A stretch of 37,925 bases of DNA from contig NVWS02000028.1 of the NCBI GenBank assembly GCA_002746295.2, forward strand, positions 1 through 37,925, read 5' to 3'. The stretch is from Zetaproteobacteria bacterium (GTDB taxonomy: Bacteria > Pseudomonadota > Zetaproteobacteria > Mariprofundales > Mariprofundaceae). Below, piece by piece: positions 1,707 to 37,925 of this stretch (within the stretch, counting starts at the first letter, position 1; each line of letters begins with the position of its first letter). The notes beneath the pieces are model-generated. The model saw nothing but the letters and a program-made list of their open reading frames with translations, made no database searches and had not been told where the DNA came from. The position numbers and the translations under genes are program-made.

Positions 1707-3119
1707 ATGATGCTTGATCCCAATGATTGGTCTAATCTTCGCAAGCAAGGTCATCAGATGTTGGATGATATGTTTGATTACTTGCAAAACATTCGTGAAA
1801 AGCCTGTTTGGCAACAGGCTCCAGCATCGGTTCAAGCTGAATTCACCGAAGGGTTAAGTCAGCAAGGTAAGCCACTTTCCCAATTGCATGAAACATTTAT
1901 GCAACAAATTTTACCGTACAGTGTCGGCAATGCTCACCCTGGTTTTATGGGCTGGGTACATGGTGGTGGCACACCCGTAGGCATGTTGGCAGAGATGTTG
2001 GCCGCAGGATTGAATGCCAACTTGGGTGGTCGCAACCAAATCCCCATTGATGTGGAGTGGCAGGTCGTGGGTTGGATGCGGGATTTATTCGGTTTTCCGC
2101 AAAGTAGCAGTGGTATTTTGACCACAGGCACATCCTCCGCCACCATCATCGCTTTCACCACCGCTCGACATGCGCTACAAAAACCCGCATCCAAAAATCT
2201 CGCCGTCTATGCTTCCTGTGAGGCGCATGGCTGCATCACTCGCGCATTAAAAATTATGGGTATGCATGCATCCATTGTGCGTAAAATACCAAGCAATGCT
2301 CAACATCAAATGGATGTCGATGTCCTTCTCACTCACATTCAACATGACCAACAACAAGCCACCATACCTTGGCTGATTGTGGGTACTGCTGGCAGTGTCA
2401 ATACAGGTGCCATGGATGATTTATCCACCCTTGCCAAGATCGCCAAAGAAGTCGGCGCTTGGCTACATATTGATGGTGCTTTGGGCGCACTTGCCATGCT
2501 TTCCCCCTCCCTTGCACCCCGTCTGCAAGGTATCGAACATGCCAATTCGTTGGCCATGGATTTTCATAAGTGGGGGCAAGTGCCTTACGATGCTGGTTTG
2601 GTATTGATACGTGATGGCGAACTACACCGTCAATGTTTTGCCGCTGGTGATGCTTATTTGCAACGGGAAGCCGAAGGTTTGGCGGCTCACTCACCTTGGC
2701 CTTGTGATTATGGCATGGACTTATCACGTGGATTTCGTGCTTTAAAAGTTTGGTTCACTTTCAAACACTTTGGCAAACAACGTTTGGGCGAAATGATCGA
2801 ACACAGTTGTCATCTCGCCCAATCACTCGCAAAACAGATCCAAAATATCGACACCTTGGAGTTGATGGCGGTCGTATCTCTCAATGTTGTCTGCTTTCGT
2901 TATATCGGCAATGGTTCACGCTCAGATGAAGCTTATAACACACTTAATCGCGCCATGCTTTGTCATATACAAGCCTCAGGTTTGGCTGCCCCATCGTTAA
3001 CGTACTTGGATGGTCGGGCTGTGATTCGTGCTGCAATTGTTAACCACCGAAGCCAAGAAGAAGACATTGGCAAACTCCTTGCAGCAGTGCAGAAAGCAGC
3101 ACAAGCCTGCGATAATTAG
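1707..3119 (+). CDS. Group II PLP-dependent amino-acid decarboxylase
   Basis: This is a member of the aromatic-L-amino-acid/glutamate/diaminobutyrate decarboxylase family (fold type I, cytosolic). Visible signatures are HPGFMGWVHGGG near the N-terminus, TTGTSSATIIAFTTAR, the cofactor Asp in WLHIDGALGA and the Schiff-base Lys288 in MDFHKWGQVPYD. At 470 residues it has the normal length. An in-frame GTG at 1632 would add a 25-residue Phe-rich leader unlike the family, so the ATG at 1707 (or 1710) is preferred, although neither has a clear Shine-Dalgarno. The substrate is unresolved. The stop codon TAG coincides with the degraded left end of a dispersed repeat that separates this gene from the ATP-grasp gene. 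Group II decarboxylase identity is secure, the specific amino acid is not. Confidence 0.9.
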   Translation: MMLDPNDWSNLRKQGHQMLDDMFDYLQNIREKPVWQQAPASVQAEFTEGLSQQGKPLSQLHETFMQQILPYSVGNAHPGFMGWVHGGGTPVGMLAEMLAAGLNANLGGRNQIPIDVEWQVVGWMRDLFGFPQSSSGILTTGTSSATIIAFTTARHALQKPASKNLAVYASCEAHGCITRALKIMGMHASIVRKIPSNAQHQMDVDVLLTHIQHDQQQATIPWLIVGTAGSVNTGAMDDLSTLAKIAKEVGAWLHIDGALGALAMLSPSLAPRLQGIEHANSLAMDFHKWGQVPYDAGLVLIRDGELHRQCFAAGDAYLQREAEGLAAHSPWPCDYGMDLSRGFRALKVWFTFKHFGKQRLGEMIEHSCHLAQSLAKQIQNIDTLELMAVVSLNVVCFRYIGNGSRSDEAYNTLNRAMLCHIQASGLAAPSLTYLDGRAVIRAAIVNHRSQEEDIGKLLAAVQKAAQACDN

Positions 3120-3275
3120 TCGGTATCGAACTAACCTTTCATTCATCATCCGAATCGTCACCCTCGAGTGCTTGTGTCGAGGGTCTAGATCCCCGATAAA
3201 AGATTTCGGGGATGACGAGCTGGAGCGAATTCGAGAATGTGGGAGAGGGCGTACATTGATACTTAAACGACTATA
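3117..3275 (-). repeat. Dispersed hairpin repeat, copy 1
   Basis: The core at 3156-3217 has CGTCA/TGACG ends enclosing two hairpins. The CCCTCGA/TCGAGGG hairpin comes first, then an ATCCCCGA/TCGGGGAT hairpin. It is read here in the reverse orientation relative to copies 3, 4, 5, 8 and 9. The right end ATACTTAAACGACTATA (3259-3275) is a clear type I terminal repeat. The left end is diverged but alignable with the subterminal arm of copy 5. About 40 nt between core and right end is longer than in other copies. The element fills the gap between the decarboxylase and the ATP-grasp gene. Confidence 0.8.
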
Positions 3276-5829: not shown

Positions 5830-5920
5830 ATTTATATCATCGAATCGTCACCCCCGAGTGCTTGTGTCGAGGGTCTATCATTAGATTCCTGATAAAATAT
5901 TTCGGGGATGACGGGGGGGG
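5830..5920 (-). repeat. Dispersed hairpin repeat, copy 2
   Basis: The core at 5846-5913 lies between two convergent genes, in the same orientation as copy 1. The first hairpin has one C/A mismatch (ACCCCCGA against TCGAGGGT), and the second is also imperfect (ATTCCTGA against TCGGGGAT), so this copy looks decayed. No terminal inverted repeat is clear, although the left flank TTTATATCATCGAATCGTCA matches the subterminal arm of other copies. It ends in a run of eight G at 5913-5920. Confidence 0.75.
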
Positions 5921-7674: not shown

Positions 7675-7751
7675 CTGTTCATTTCTCCACTTGATTCATA
7701 TATTTCCACCAAGAACGATGGGGGAAAACATCAGCTATTCAAGCCTTACCT

Positions 7752-10411: not shown

Positions 10412-10542
10412 ACATAAAAATCACCAGTTCGTCATCCCCAAAATCTTTTATCGGGAATCTAATGATAGACCCTAGATACAAGCACTCGAGGGTGACGGTT
10501 GGATGATGATCGAAACGGTAGTTCCATACTTAAACGACTATA
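10412..10542 (+). repeat. Dispersed hairpin repeat, copy 3
   Basis: The core at 10430-10497 lies between the two chemoreceptor genes. The right arm carries the type I end ATACTTAAACGACTATA (10526-10542). The left end is degraded but AACATAAAAATCACCAG is alignable with the left arm of copy 5. Hairpin 1 has lost some pairing, while hairpin 2 (ACCCTAGA/TCGAGGGT) has one mismatch. Confidence 0.78.
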
Positions 10543-13163: not shown

Positions 13164-13336
13164 ACTGATGTTACGCACTCCGTCATCCTATGCTTCCACC
13201 TGCTCGTCATACCCGAAATCTTTTATCGGGTATTACCCATAGACCCTCGATACAAGCATTCGAGGGTGACGTGATGCAGACTCGTGGATGACCAGTCCGC
13301 ATGACGACATATTTCAAGCGAATGCGTAACATCAGT
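13164..13336 (+). repeat. Dispersed hairpin repeat, copy 4 (type II ends)
   Basis: This 173-bp element has perfect 14-bp terminal inverted repeats, ACTGATGTTACGCA at 13164-13177 and its complement at 13323-13336. Inside is the common core (13205-13271). Hairpin 1 is ATACCCGA/TCGGGTAT, a compensatory variant of ATTCCCGA/TCGGGAAT. These ends differ from the TATAGT ends of type I copies. The right end stops 3 nt from the stop codon of the flavoprotein gene at 13340. Confidence 0.85.
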
Positions 13337-15567: not shown

Positions 15568-15629
15568 GTTTAAAATCCCTTATTTTATTGATGTTACGGA
15601 CGTGATGAAGAACAAGCGTTATTTCCAAA

Positions 15630-15766
15630 TATAGTGATTCAAGTATTAAATCACCACGTCATTCCCGAAATCTTTTATCGGGAATCTAATGATAGACCCT
15701 CGACACAAGCACTCGAGGGTGACGATTGGGTGATAGAAATGATAGTTCTATGCTTGAATCACTATA
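15630..15766 (+). repeat. Dispersed hairpin repeat, copy 5 (best type I element)
   Basis: This is the most complete copy, 137 bp. Its left end TATAGTGATTCAAG and right end CTTGAATCACTATA are perfect 14-bp inverted repeats beginning and ending in TA. The core (15657-15724) has CGTCA/TGACG ends, hairpin ATTCCCGA/TCGGGAAT with loop AATCTTTTA, and hairpin ACCCTCGA/TCGAGGGT. There is no internal reading frame. The structure is that of a non-autonomous IS630/Tc1-like MITE, with a TA target inferred from the ends. Confidence 0.88.
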
Positions 15767-15821
15767 TATATTCCCGCGCAGAAGCATGGTAACGAGATTA
15801 TTTTATCACGACTTTAAATGC

Positions 15822-15850
15822 TTTTCTTTGTGTCTCTGTACTCTGTGGTT
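15822..15850 (-). repeat. AACCACAGAG dispersed motif, copy B
   Basis: The minus strand reads AACCACAGAGTACAGAGACA followed by CAAAGAAAAG, the same motif as at 14802-14824 with a 6-nt insertion. It lies just downstream of the cupredoxin-like gene. Confidence 0.5.
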
Positions 15851-15871
15851 GTTTCTTTCGTGTAACATCAG

Positions 15872-19405: not shown

Positions 19406-22400
19406 TTATAGTGTCGCAGCGATTTCTTCAATGATGTAAAATTCAAAGGTATCACCTTCTTTCACATCATTGAATTTCTCAACACCAATACCACATTCAT
19501 AACCTGATTTCACTTCTTTCACATCATCTTTAAAGCGACGCAAAGAAGCCAACTCACCATCATGAATCAAGACATTATCACGCAATACACGCACTTTCGA
19601 TGCACGCATCACATAACCTTCGGTGACATAAGCACCAGCAATCGCACCGATTTTCGGTACAGTAATCACTTGGCGAACTTCGGCTTCACCCGTCACTTTC
19701 TCAACTTGATCAGGTGATAATTCGCCTGCCATCGCAGCTCTCACATCATCAATCGCATCATAAATCACTTTATAAAAACGAACATCAATCTTGTGATCCG
19801 AAGCCAAACGCTTGGCCTTAGTTTCAGGGCGAACATTAAAACCAATCATCATGGCACTGGATGCTTGTGCCAACATAACATCCGATTCCGTAATCGCACC
19901 AATGCCTTTATGGACAATTTTCACCTTGACTTCATCGGTACCCAATTTCACCAAAGATTCAGCCATCGCATCCACAGAACCCGATACATCACCCTTAATA
20001 ATCACAGGCACTTCTGCCATATCACTCTTCACGGCTGCAAATAAATCATCAAAACTAGCACGTTTGGTGGATGCTTCTTTCAACTGACGGGCTTGTTCTT
20101 TACGATAGGATATAATATCACGTGCCTGACGGTCATTCTTCACAGAAACAATTTTAGCACCCGCTTCAGGAACCGATTCTAGCCCCAACAACTCAAACGG
20201 AACCGAAGGACCTGCTGTACGATGTTGTACGGCATTTTCATCGACAATCGCACGAATACGACCTGTTACAGTGCCAACAACGACAATATCACCCTTCTTA
20301 AAGGTACCATTTTGTACCAATACAGTCGCCACAGGACCACGACCACGATCCAAGCGTGATTCAACCACCACACCACGACCCACACCTTCAGGGTTGGCAC
20401 GTAATTCCAAAATTTCTGTTTGCAAGGCCAACATTTCTAACAAGTCATCCAAGCCTTGTCCTGTATGGGCAGAGACTTCAACAAAGATGGTATCTCCCCC
20501 CCACTCTTCAGGAAGAATACCATGCTCGGATAATTGACGTTTTACATTTTCAGGATTGGCACCATCTTTATCCATTTTATTGATGGCAACAATAATGGGT
20601 ACACCCGCAGATTTCGCATGGTTCAATGCTTCCACAGTTTGCGGCATCACACCATCATCGGCTGCGACCACAAGGACGGCCACATCGGTCAATTTTGCAC
20701 CACGAGCACGCAAACTGGTAAAGGCTTCATGACCTGGTGTATCGACAAAAACAACCCGTTCACCACCCGTTAGTTTCACCATATAAGCACCAATATGTTG
20801 GGTGATACCACCTGCTTCACCAGCCGCAACCGTGGCTTTCCGCAATGCATCAAGAATCGATGTTTTACCATGATCCACATGTCCCATAACCACAACAACA
20901 GGTGGACGTGGTGTTAATAATTCTTCATCCACACCTGTTTCTTCTACCAGAATATCTTCAACTGCCGCTTCATTGATGACTTTGGCTTTATGACCAAATT
21001 CTTCCACCACAAGCATGGCAGTATCACTGTCAAGATTATCATTGGATGTCACGATTGTGCCCATATTCATCAATTGTTTGACGACTTCAATGGTCTTGAT
21101 CGCCATGCGACTTGCCAATTCTGACACGATAATTGGATTGGTAATTTCAACTTCACGAACAACAAAGTTTTCATCATCCTTGGTGATGTTTTTCTTCATA
21201 AAACGACGGCGGTCACCCTTCGCCAAACGTGCCATGCGTTCTTCTTGTTGCGGTGTCAATACTTCATGGCGCTTGCTAGAGTAAGAACGACGTGCCGCTT
21301 TTTCAGCAGGTGTTAAACGACGTTGGGTTTGGCGTTGTTGACCTGGACCACCAGCAAAACGACGTTTGACTGCTGTCGGTGCTGTCACAGGTTCTGTCGG
21401 CCCTACACCAATGTTTGGTGTGGTACGACGCGCACCCATTGCTTGCCCTGGACGCTGTTGTGCGCCTGCGGCTTGTCCTGGACGACGGTTGTTACGCGCC
21501 GCATTCTCACGACGACGATCATTCCGTTCTTTGGTGATTTTTGCTTCTATCTGTTTGATAGAAGACTTGGGGGCTTTAGCAGCCGCAATTTGTGCAGGTG
21601 TTAAGCCTTTACGAATGGTTGTGCGCGGACCTGTCGTTGTACGCCCTTGCTGACCTCCAGGACGATTCGGGTTCGGACGCTGTCCTAGGCGATTCGGGTT
21701 CGGACGCTGTCCTAGGCGATTCGGATTCGGACGTTGCTGCCCTGCTGGGCGATTCGGGTTCGGACGCTGTTGCCCTGCTGGACGGTTTGGGTTTGGACGT
21801 TGTTGCCCTGCTGGACGATTTGGATTTGGACGTTGTTGACCTGCGGCGAGGCGATTCGGGTTCGGACGCTGTTGACCTGCTGGACGGTTTGGGTTTGGTC
21901 GAGGTTGATTCACACCCGATGTACTGCGTGCAGCCAAACGTTTTGTTTTTTCTTCCATCACCAATTTCTCAGCATCTTGTTTTTTCTTTTCCAAGGCTTG
22001 AGCTGCCATTTGTGCTGGTGATAATTTACTACGGGCAGGTGCTGGTGACGTTTTTTTCACAGCAACCTTGGTCGCACCCATAGGTTTCTTAACAATAGGC
22101 GGTTTCGGAGTTTGGCTTGGTTTGGCTTTGACGACTTCAGCCTTCTTCTGCACCTCATTTTTTTGCACCACTTCAACTTTCTTTGCTGCTTCAGCCTTCA
22201 CAGCTTCTTTCACCACAGTTGTTGGCGCAGACGTATCGACAGTAGCCTGTTTTAAGGAAAGTGTGGATTCTCCTGAAGTATTGGATGCTTGGGCGGCGGC
22301 GCTAGGCTTTGAACGACGACGACGTACTGCAACCTGAACGGTATGACCCCGACCATCGGATGTTGAGCTGCGTCCTGCACCTGAGCGAGGAGACAATGTC

Positions 22401-25266: not shown

Positions 25267-25686
25267 TTATAGCCCTGCTGTCACTTTCCAAACATCGCCT
25301 TTTTTCTGCAACATCAATTGCTCTCGACGTGTCATCACACGCCACTGACCATCGGCATACGCCTTGAGTGTATAGCTTTGTTCACATTCCGCATGACCAT
25401 GCGGTAACACACGAACCGTACGATCATGTGTTACCATCTCAATTTTATCAAAGGTTTGAAATAGGTGCTGCACATCATCAACCACCTTGTTCTTATCACG
25501 TCCTAAAGCAATATAATCATTGGCAATCAATGCTGCGTAATGTTGTATGTTTTTTTCATGCATGGCTTGACTGCGTTGATTCAACACCTGTTCAACCGCC
25601 TCATGTTCATTGGCTGAACAGCCCACGAACATAGCCATGAAAAAAGCATAAAGGCTAAAGCGAAGCAGCTTTTTCACTCCAGCCAC
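25267..25686 (-). CDS. NTF2-like (SnoaL/DUF4440-type) small lipoprotein
   Basis: This 139-residue protein has a hydrophobic leader ending FVGC at Cys23, so it is probably an envelope lipoprotein. The mature part resembles the NTF2-like fold: EAVEQVLNQRSQAMHEKN, HYAALIANDYIALGRDK, a central helix with VDDVQHLFQTF, then strands through EQSYTLKAY, WRVMTRREQLMLQK and DVWKVTAGL. NTF2-like folds serve as enzymes or binding modules; no catalytic set is evident. The GTG start overlaps the bamD end by 32 nt; a second GTG at 25677 is possible. It ends upstream of the rimP leader. Confidence 0.7.
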   Translation of the reverse strand: MAGVKKLLRFSLYAFFMAMFVGCSANEHEAVEQVLNQRSQAMHEKNIQHYAALIANDYIALGRDKNKVVDDVQHLFQTFDKIEMVTHDRTVRVLPHGHAECEQSYTLKAYADGQWRVMTRREQLMLQKKGDVWKVTAGL

Positions 25687-26839: not shown

Positions 26840-26891
26840 CAAACAAAAAAACATAACTTTTTGGCATTGAGTGCTTTACGTCTTTACAAAA

Positions 26892-26923
26892 GATCCCCGA
26901 TACAAGCATTCGGGGGAGGGACG
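26892..26923 (+). repeat. Half-core fragment of the dispersed repeat
   Basis: The sequence GATCCCCGATACAAGCATTC then GGGGGAGGGACG matches only the second hairpin half of the core (GACCCTCGATACAAGCATTC then GAGGGTGACG), with CCCCGA/TCGGGG pairing retained. It lies 20 nt from copy 6 and is probably a decayed remnant. Confidence 0.6.
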
Positions 26924-26942: not shown

Positions 26943-27106
26943 ACTAATGTTACGCATTTTCTTGAAATTATGTCGTCATCCGCCCTGATCATCCACGCAG
27001 TCTGTCACCATGTCACCCTCGAATGCTTGTATCTAGGGTCTATGGGGAGATACCCGATAAAAGATTTCGGGGATTCATGGCTCTTAATCAAGCGCGCAAC
27101 ATTAGT
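26943..27106 (-). repeat. Dispersed hairpin repeat, copy 6 (type II ends)
   Basis: The left end ACTAATGTTACGCA and the right end CGCGCAACATTAGT are imperfect inverted repeats. The left 40 nt align with the right arm of copy 4 read backwards (TGTCGTCATCCGC after CTTGAAAT), placing both in one subfamily. The core (about 27011-27076) has hairpin ACCCTCGA/TCTAGGGT and a weakened second hairpin, and the closing TGACG is lost. Confidence 0.78.
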
Positions 27107-29171: not shown

Positions 29172-29312
29172 TATATCCTGTTTTAAGTATGAAACGATCA
29201 TTTCTATATCCCCCAATCGTCATCCTCGAATGCTTGTATCGAGGATCTACCATTAGATTCCCGATAAAAGATTTCGGGAATGACGTGCTGATTTAATACT
29301 TGAATTACTATA
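29172..29312 (-). repeat. Dispersed hairpin repeat, copy 7
   Basis: This element is 141 bp with right end ACTTGAATTACTATA and a diverged left end (TATATCCTGTTTTAAGTATG). The core is 29218-29285. Hairpin ATCCTCGA/TCGAGGAT is a compensatory variant of ACCCTCGA/TCGAGGGT, and the second hairpin ATTCCCGA/TCGGGAAT is perfect. A near-exact copy of its own left end (TATATCCTGTTTTAAGTATG) follows directly at 29311-29330, a remnant of a second element or a partial duplication. Confidence 0.85.
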
Positions 29313-34613: not shown

Positions 34614-34770
34614 ATTCAGCTACCTCTTCGTTCGTCATTCTCGAAATCTTTTATCGAGAATCTAATGATAGACCCTCGATACAACCCATCGATACAAGCA
34701 TTCGAGGGTGACGTACTCGAGGGTGACGATTGGTTGATAGAAATGATAGTTCTATAGTTGAATGACTATA
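34614..34770 (+). repeat. Dispersed hairpin repeat, copy 8 (expanded core)
   Basis: The core is 34633-34728, about 28 nt longer than other copies because of internal duplication: CGATACAA occurs twice and TCGAGGGTGACG occurs twice. Hairpin 1 is ATTCTCGA/TCGAGAAT, a compensatory variant. The right end GTTGAATGACTATA (34757-34770) is a type I end; the left end is degraded next to the aspC stop. It lies between the convergent aspC and trmD genes, where rplS would normally follow trmD. Confidence 0.83.
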
Positions 34771-37797: not shown

Positions 37798-37925
37798 TAT
37801 AGTGATTCAAGTATTAAAGCACCGTCATTCCCGAAATATTTTATCGGGAATCTATCCATAGACCCTCGATAAAAGCATTCGAGGGTGACGACAGTATAAT
37901 GTAGTATTCATACTTAAACGACTAT
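37798..37925 (+). repeat. Dispersed hairpin repeat, copy 9 (runs to the window edge)
   Basis: The left end TATAGTGATTCAAGTATTAA is identical to the left end of copy 5. The core is 37823-37890 with perfect hairpins ATTCCCGA/TCGGGAAT and ACCCTCGA/TCGAGGGT. The right end ATACTTAAACGACTAT is cut by the window end, with the last base expected just outside. It lies about 60 nt upstream of the ffh start. Confidence 0.87.

Follow-up and report, generated by a model that had tools for sequence, protein, structure and literature searches.

The element at 15630-15766 is very probably a non-autonomous, Tc1/mariner-like MITE of the IS630 type, which is moved by an IS630 transposase and carries a dimer of CGTC REP palindromes as its passenger. 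For its outer frame, which we call F1, there is good support for the identification as an IS630-type MITE. Of more interest is the heart of the F1 MITE, a CGTC REP dimer common to three MITE frames. The DNA that we analyzed, called the window below, is a whole contig of 37,925 bases (C137) from a genome of 2.09 Mb in 138 contigs (G000). The host is a marine bacterium and a relative of iron oxidisers.

A preliminary description of the window, made from its letters, had listed nine cores of a repeat. All nine were found where it had placed them, and each was matched by a covariance model of a 68-bp core (R1), which we built from 29 aligned cores including eight of the nine in the window. The core begins with CGTCA and closes with TGACG; between them lie two hairpins, each with an 8-bp stem and a loop of 9 nt, joined by a linker TCTA...TAGA. 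Its two halves are inverted relatives of one another. The frame CGTCA...TGACG had been ascribed to all of the copies; it is present in eight, and the core at 27011 has TGTCA...TTCAT. A scan of the window against Rfam at the gathering score gave 0 matches. The features of the window are listed below, with the positions of all cores.

3113..3275, minus strand: copy 1, F1-derived insertion with right end ACGACTATA and decayed left end, core 3156-3217; the congener G005 has GCGATA-ACATTT
5846..5913, minus strand: copy 2, CGTC REP dimer without recognisable ends, core 5846-5913; present in the congener G005 too
7736..7743: empty site; the congener G005 has an F1 copy whose left end is truncated, and the TA case is not clean
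10430..10542, plus strand: copy 3, dimer that has the F1 end on the right side only, core 10430-10497
13165..13335, plus strand: copy 4, F2 element (ends CTGATGTTACGCA) holding the dimer 13205-13271
15588..15871: F2-type ends TGATGTTACGG ... CGTGTAACATCAG, with copy 5 nested within; flanking 8-mers TTATTTTA / TTACTTCA, 6/8 alike
15630..15766, plus strand: copy 5, complete F1 element (very probably an IS630-type MITE), 137 bp, both TATAGTGATTCAAG ends, core 15657-15724; TA target seen at eight other copies
25270..25271: empty TA site; the congener G005 has a 263-bp F1 insertion with a second F1 element nested in it
about 26886..26916, plus strand: single CGTC-type hairpin, half dimer
26944..27105, minus strand: copy 6, F2-like element CTAATGTTACGCA ... 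GCGCAACATTAG holding the dimer 27011-27078; right end by eye
29174..29312, minus strand: copy 7, F1 element with altered left end (TATCCTG), core 29218-29285; absent in the congener G005, junction ambiguous in TATATA
34633..34770, plus strand: copy 8, dimer that has an F1 right end and is internally duplicated, core 34633-34713; the congener G005 copy is without the duplication
37798..37925, plus strand: copy 9, F1 element reaching the contig end, core 37823-37890

Across the entire genome, R1 gave at least 151 matches at E <=0.1 (150 of 1261 candidates scored). A sample of 417,537 bp of G000 contained 96 core places, of which 84 are full-length and 12 partial; this is about one per 4.3 kb, a density biased by the choice of the sample, which is the window plus 20 stretches picked for holding matches. 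The stretches of the comparison genome G005 were picked likewise, and their densities are biased in the same way.

Typical F1 copies are 137-139 bp long and read TATAGT[G/C]ATTCAAGTAT ... ATACTTGAAT[G/C]ACTATA, with ends of 17 bp. F1 is thus short, non-coding, present in many copies and bounded by terminal inverted repeats, as a MITE should be. Its end pattern, allowing at most 2 mismatches, had 169 matches in G000, compared with 2 in a control read backwards. When pairs of F1 ends 60-230 bp apart were chosen by the ends, the core lay inside 26 of 26 in the own-genome stretches and 22 of 22 in 40 stretches of G005. One coreless F1-like element of 117 bp (L047:1564-1680), itself nested in a dimer linker, has ends that resemble those of the IS630 fragments of G000 treated below. 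The perfect ends claimed for copy 5 were confirmed (TATAGTGATTCAAG / CTTGAATCACTATA).

The ends, assigned partly by eye, also showed that the nine copies are not one family as had been proposed, and that they belong to F1, to partial F1, to F2-type ends or to none. TATAGT-type ends stand on both sides of copies 5 and 9, the latter cut by the contig end, and copy 7 has both with the left one altered. Copies 1, 3 and 8 have the right F1 end alone, copy 2 has neither, and copies 4 (13165-13335) and 6 (26944-27105) sit between ends of the CTGATGTTACGCA type. Most of the window copies are intergenic; copy 6 overlaps a 256-aa frame at its predicted start. Copy 1 (3113-3275) is inserted at a gene's 3' end, and the present stop codon of this gene (3117-3119) is within the inserted stretch; at this site the reading frame of the congener G005 runs on. 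The internal duplication of copy 8 is in its second hairpin (window 34633-34713) and is missing from the orthologous G005 copy.

The target of F1 was determined by comparison with G005, a congener whose longer pieces syntenic with the window are 85-97% identical to it. One third or less of each genome entered this presence/absence comparison. Each genome's stretches were searched for empty sites (flank, one TA, flank) of the other's end pairs, which numbered 704 and 648 with accidental pairs included. The script gave 31 and 16 rows, many of which were paralogous repeat matches or accidental pairs, and these rows were sorted by eye. Eight orthologous empty sites had unique flanks and exactly one TA. 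Five of them are occupied in G000 (L102:6875-7005, L108:1123-1261, L112:7164-7302, L005:1504-1642 and L012:426-563) and three in G005 (L146:11956-12084, L151:9558-9759 and L140:15874-16136, the last of which is empty at window 25270-25271). Less clean cases were L102:4180-4316, with a one-base gap at the TA; L105:11103-11443, with one TA base missing; and, in the window, 29174-29312 (ambiguous in TATATA), 3113-3275 (left end decayed) and 7736 (G005 copy truncated). At copy 5, the empty site is not clean, as G005 is without 286 bp there, F2 ends included. The check by empty sites that had been set beforehand was thus passed at eight sites, and the highlighted copy's own site is unclean. Another palindrome, like TTCCCATGC..GCATGGGAA, was seen beside F1 insertions at L108 1262-1290, in L147 after 18992 and in L145 before 12123.

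With regard to the transposase, the statement that the window holds none stands as far as DDE_3 and Y1 domains are concerned, searches for which gave no match on the window contig. In the whole of G000, DDE_3 (PF13358) had three matches. Two of them are 3' pieces, each at the start of a contig, and the third is a gene whose ends are different. The two IS630 3' fragments end in CTTAATCTACTATA, and their end TATAGTAGATTAAG agrees with the MITE end at 10 of 14 positions without a gap; one own-genome IS630 piece (L021) had a score of 89.3 with NF033545, the cut-off being 100. The third DDE_3 gene (C132, L022), with its different ends, was set aside.

Among the congeners, the IS630-family genes L160, L161 and L162 exceeded the NF033545 cut-off, and these genes adjoin MITE-like ends. 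We scored the ends by eye against TATAGTGATTCAAG. The IS630 ends of G008:C121 are TATAGTGATTCAAG (14/14) and TATAGTGAACCAGA (10/14), those of the IS630 of about 950 bp in G008:C143 are TATAGTAATTCAAG (13/14) and TATAGTAGTTTAAG (11/14), and those of the 948-bp IS630 in G005:C29 are TATAGTGAATCAAG (13/14) and TATAGTGAATCAAA (12/14). DDE_3 matches occurred in only 3 of the 11 genomes of the genus, G000 included. From the similar ends and the known chemistry of the family, we infer that an IS630 transposase of the genus moves the F1 MITE. The earlier proposal of an IS630-type MITE with a TA target is thus borne out for the outer frame F1, because eight empty sites have one TA and because IS630-family transposases with similar ends occur in congeners. 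As for the mechanism, an IS630-family transposase encoded elsewhere would recognise the TATAGT[G/C]ATTCAAG ends and excise the element, which would then insert at a TA, the target seen at the empty sites, with duplication of the TA.

The 68-bp core inside F1 is a head-to-head dimer of CGTC-tagged REP palindromes, in a variant with a 9-nt loop. In the alignment of 29 cores the CGTC tag stands at one end of the palindrome, and the core has CGTC at both of its outer ends. The first stem pair is A-T in 26 of 26 distinct rows in both helices (in the later search for units this pair was part of the anchors), and the second is T-A in 89 and C-G in 51 of 157 units. According to the account of the CGTC REP superfamily in PMC3733652, the stem has 8-9 bp, the first pair is A-T and the second almost invariably A-T or T-A; in families 1-4 the loop is 4-5 and the tail CCA, with other loops in some members. 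The dimer is a variant outside the four described CGTC families and, by its tag, within the superfamily. With the repeats treated in that account, which include neisserial dRS3 and rickettsial RPE-4/RPE-6, it shares the outer CGTC, the 8-bp stem with A-T first, the head-to-head dimers and the high copy number. It differs from them, as they are described there, in its loop of 9, in its tail, which is TA and not CCA, in the frequent C-G at the second pair, in the many stem types within one genome and in its packaging in MITEs.

The preliminary description had noticed that both sides of a stem change together between copies, and it took this to suggest that the fold is maintained. To measure such changes, we selected units on their tags and on four letters of the loop, so that seven stem pairs played no part in the choice. 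In the 417,537 bp of G000, 97 of 157 units were fully Watson-Crick paired, whereas 2000 shuffles gave 20.9 on average and 35 at most; the backwards-read control gave 16 units. When distinct arm pairs were counted, 10 of 63 were fully paired (shuffled mean 2.2, maximum 7). The values for G005 were 104 of 158 units (shuffled 20.1, maximum 36) and 11 of 60 distinct pairs (1.8, maximum 7). These results indicate that the paired changes do exceed chance. In the first alignment, which was chosen by BLAST, both-sided changes occurred in 2 of 16 pairs, a number reached by 278 of 500 shuffles, and the 9 cells with both-sided changes and the covariation score exceeded 500 of 500 shuffles.

We also compared five sites common to G000 and G005, picked because their flanks align up to the core; a sixth (o9) differs by a duplication instead. 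At these five sites 19 stem pairs differ, and one of the differences is compensatory. A maintained fold fits the spreading copies (97/157 paired) and fits the copies in place less well (1/19). Our reading is that intact copies spread and settled copies decay. The hairpins would co-vary as intact copies multiply, perhaps with templated repair across the palindrome, and copies in place would decay.

A possible but rather doubtful alternative is that template switching or gene conversion, within copies and from one copy to another, gave rise to the paired changes without any selection on the fold. Strand switching can correct quasi-palindromes to palindromes. In keeping with such a process, the interiors of same-site elements differ between G000 and G005 (o4, o5), and the ends of the element at window 29174-29312 appear exchanged. 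However, the samples of G000 and G005 contain ten and eleven coexisting perfect stem types, respectively, and conversion is here inseparable from the spread of intact copies.

It had been supposed that the hairpins belong to the IS630-type MITE alone. We found that this is not the case, since the CGTC-type REP dimer is present also in two other end frames and without any frame. The ends of the second frame, F2 (CTGATGTTACGCA, at most 1 mismatch), had 84 matches in G000 and 0 in the control. When F2 pairs were chosen by their ends, a core of at least 30 bits was present in 13 of 15 in the own-genome loci and in 7 of 7 in G005; of these 13, one holds the core via a nested F1 copy only and two are at 32-33 bits. 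The flanking 8-mers of F2 were alike at 7 or more of 8 positions in 5 of 15 own-genome and 2 of 7 G005 pairs, and in several further pairs the two flanks have a 7-mer in common at an offset of one base. F2 is a second MITE family with the dimer, has AT-rich duplications of 7-8 bp, and occurs in the window at 13165-13335, 15588-15871 and 26944-27105.

The third frame, F3, was found in congeners, with ends CAGGGCAATCGCATT / CAGGGCAATCGCATTAAAA and 10-bp duplications. By eye, the flanking 10-mers of F3 were identical at L118 (G004), L248 (G002) and L250 (G004; partial core, 17.5 bits), 9/10 alike at L240, L243 and L257, and not alike at L252, L266 and L259, where the element is bare and 70 bp long. 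Among F3 pairs shorter than 420 bp in the loci compared, five of nine held a core of 24-36 bits (L240, L248, L252, L257 and L266); the four coreless ones include the 70-bp bare palindrome and L243, in which one single CGTC palindrome was seen by eye. Long F3 elements of 1244-1255 bp (G005:C22:41299-42542 and G000:C93:1593-2847) are probably the autonomous form. Pieces of the long F3 element of G005 gave 24 bits with DDE_Tnp_1 (cut-off 23) and 25 bits with DDE_Tnp_1_assoc, below its cut-off of 32.3, which would agree with an element of the ISAs1 type.

At the 96 core places of the own-genome sample, F1 ends stood on both sides in 30 and on one side in 30, F2 ends on both sides in 4 and on one side in 8, and mixed ends in 5. 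Of 1920 random places taken as a control, 68 had an F1-like end and 16 an F2-like end. The remaining 19 core places had neither F1 nor F2; 13 of these are full-length, and the partial ones include halves that nesting has split apart.

The dimer is confined to the genus in our search: at E <=1e-6, R1 found cores in 9 of 61 genomes, and all 9 are among the 11 genomes of this genus. At E <=1e-3, all six congeners searched again had matches, among them G001 with 42, which make up at least 17 distinct places among the matches listed, and G009 with 4; these counts, like those in the window and across genomes, may include both strands of one palindrome. The F1 end pattern matched 169 times in G000, 142 times in G005 and 0 to 34 times in the other nine genomes. 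It had no match in G001, a genome that is 68% complete, and five matches in G009 (99% complete), where two cores lie within TATAGT-type ends (L225, L230). We read this as a dimer older than, or independent of, the F1 expansion, a reading weakened by the incompleteness of G001. A scan of named genomes with the exact pattern found only Mariprofundaceae bacterium AMOR20_M1292 (JAUZQO01), with 16 stretches, in a search that possibly excluded records very near the window.

One dimer occurs in three frames, the target duplications of which are 2 bp, 7-8 bp and 10 bp. As a serious possibility, which we offer tentatively, the CGTC REP dimers may be parasites of MITEs without a transposase of their own: one dimer would have been loaded at the palindrome apex of at least three unrelated families, would spread with each of them and would offer its TA linker as a harmless landing site. 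In our main reading, too, the dimer would spread mainly through its place inside MITEs of at least three families. We found no transposase of the dimer's own. The account of 2013 describes CGTC REPs as apparently without a dedicated transposase and leaves their movement open (PMC3733652). Here the CGTC dimer has been found within transposons whose ends are defined and for which orthologous empty sites exist, and riding in three kinds of jumping element may be the route by which this repeat spreads. Moreover, the dimer load differs between close relatives in the genus, which makes the dependence of passenger on vehicle, or of vehicle on passenger, testable.

The opposite relation, which we regard as unlikely, is that the dimer is mobile by itself, as a REPIN-like unit that a RAYT-type tyrosine transposase moves as single-stranded DNA and that lands at palindrome apexes, so that the MITEs are targets and not vehicles. 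The presence of one dimer in three frames and, at 13 full-length places, without F1 or F2 would agree with this, as would the cores of G001, where no F1 end was matched. Y1_Tnp had 11 matches in G000, and the two proteins named by NCBIfam are an IS200/IS605 TnpA and a RAYT-like protein. The gene of the latter has a dimer about 540 bp away; however, it reaches 69 bits with NF047646, the cut-off being 80, and a nearby dimer is unsurprising at about one per 4 kb. This gene was not accepted as the partner of the dimer, and membership in the REPIN/RAYT system was rejected, the tag being CGTC and not GTAG. An array of frameless dimers (C98:361-827, L098) differs by 238 bp from its counterpart in G005 (L147:16454-16682) without clean insertion ends, and this difference is not explained by a clean MITE insertion. 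REP dimers within longer palindromes are described in A. variabilis and H. neapolitanus (PMC3733652), which also fits an independent unit; the same account (Di Nocera et al. 2013) speaks against it, giving CGTC repeats as not associated with transposase genes. Among the clean presence/absence differences between G000 and G005, in the third or less of each genome that was compared, none was the insertion of a bare dimer, and for this reason we favor a dimer that rides over a dimer that inserts. We leave our estimates as they are despite the weakened argument from G001, because they rest on the frames F2 and F3 and on the frameless dimers.

Returning to the dimer as passenger, we examined its linker as a landing site. 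Nesting was scored by joining the flanks and comparing them with the core profile; a test based on the hairpins (0/25 and 2/27 two-sided cases) was replaced because it was judged too strict for decayed stems. Of the complete elements, 6 of 36 in all own-genome loci and 6 of 24 in the G005 stretches lay within the linker of a different core. These 12 nested cases join the eight empty sites as evidence of insertion at TA with duplication of the TA. In addition, a linker that is intact in G000 (L098:3926-3988, a dimer without its last bases) is broken in G005 by an F1-type end, the left side being aligned. Insertion into dimer linkers is thus certain. The TA targets in the TCTA...TAGA linker take further copies in this way and give rise to the nested arrays that are seen. 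A preference for the linker is only suggested: compared with TA sites outside ORFs of at least 100 aa, the excess was 6/24 in G005 (p 3e-5) and 1/24 in the own-genome stretches (p 0.69). For ISY100, a relative of IS630, PMC2170065 gives nearly all insertions at TA and a normal TA duplication in 34 of 39 products, and cites a CTAG preference of an IS630 transposon.

Several known systems resemble these elements. RUP of Streptococcus pneumoniae, the MITE of IS630-Spn1, is about 107 bp long, has IS630-like ends and a TA target, and inserts into mobile elements (PMC2229807). No REP dimer is reported for RUP in that account, and its IS630 is in the same species, whereas the best end match here is in congeners. 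The Correia/NEMIS elements of Neisseria, to which the preliminary description had likened the repeat, are according to PMC2229807 TA-ended MITEs of about 107 and 155 bp, a size similar to that of F1. Neisseria has both Correia elements and dRS3, which is a CGTC REP; here the CGTC REP is inside the MITE. In Anabaena variabilis, GTAG-15 dimers lie in TATAGGA...TCCTATA palindromes, so that a REP dimer in a TATA-ended palindrome is shared with F1; the repeat is of the GTAG and not the CGTC type, and the account in PMC3733652 gives it without empty sites or a transposase. Our literature search found no report of CGTC REPs inside MITEs, nor of MITEs in this group.

Finally, it is very unlikely that selection keeps the hairpins at each site because they act as RNA structures, either terminators or mRNA stabilisers: the dimer fold is stable with DNA parameters (z -7.1), the paired changes are strong and most window copies are intergenic, but nearly paired units show no RNA-strand bias, G-U on the unit strand not exceeding A-C (17 vs 18 in G000, 14 vs 15 in G005), 18 of the 19 stem differences at the five shared sites are not compensatory, and neither a T-run after either stem (by eye) nor an Rfam match in the window was present.

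Two further observations concern repeats and the assembly. Contigs C59, C67, C69, C74 and C92 of G000 have F1 elements at base 1-130, and the assembly seems to be broken at repeats. A coding repeat with units of about 27-36 nt (GATTCGGGTTCGGACG) lies in a 1058-aa reading frame at window 21628-21907.
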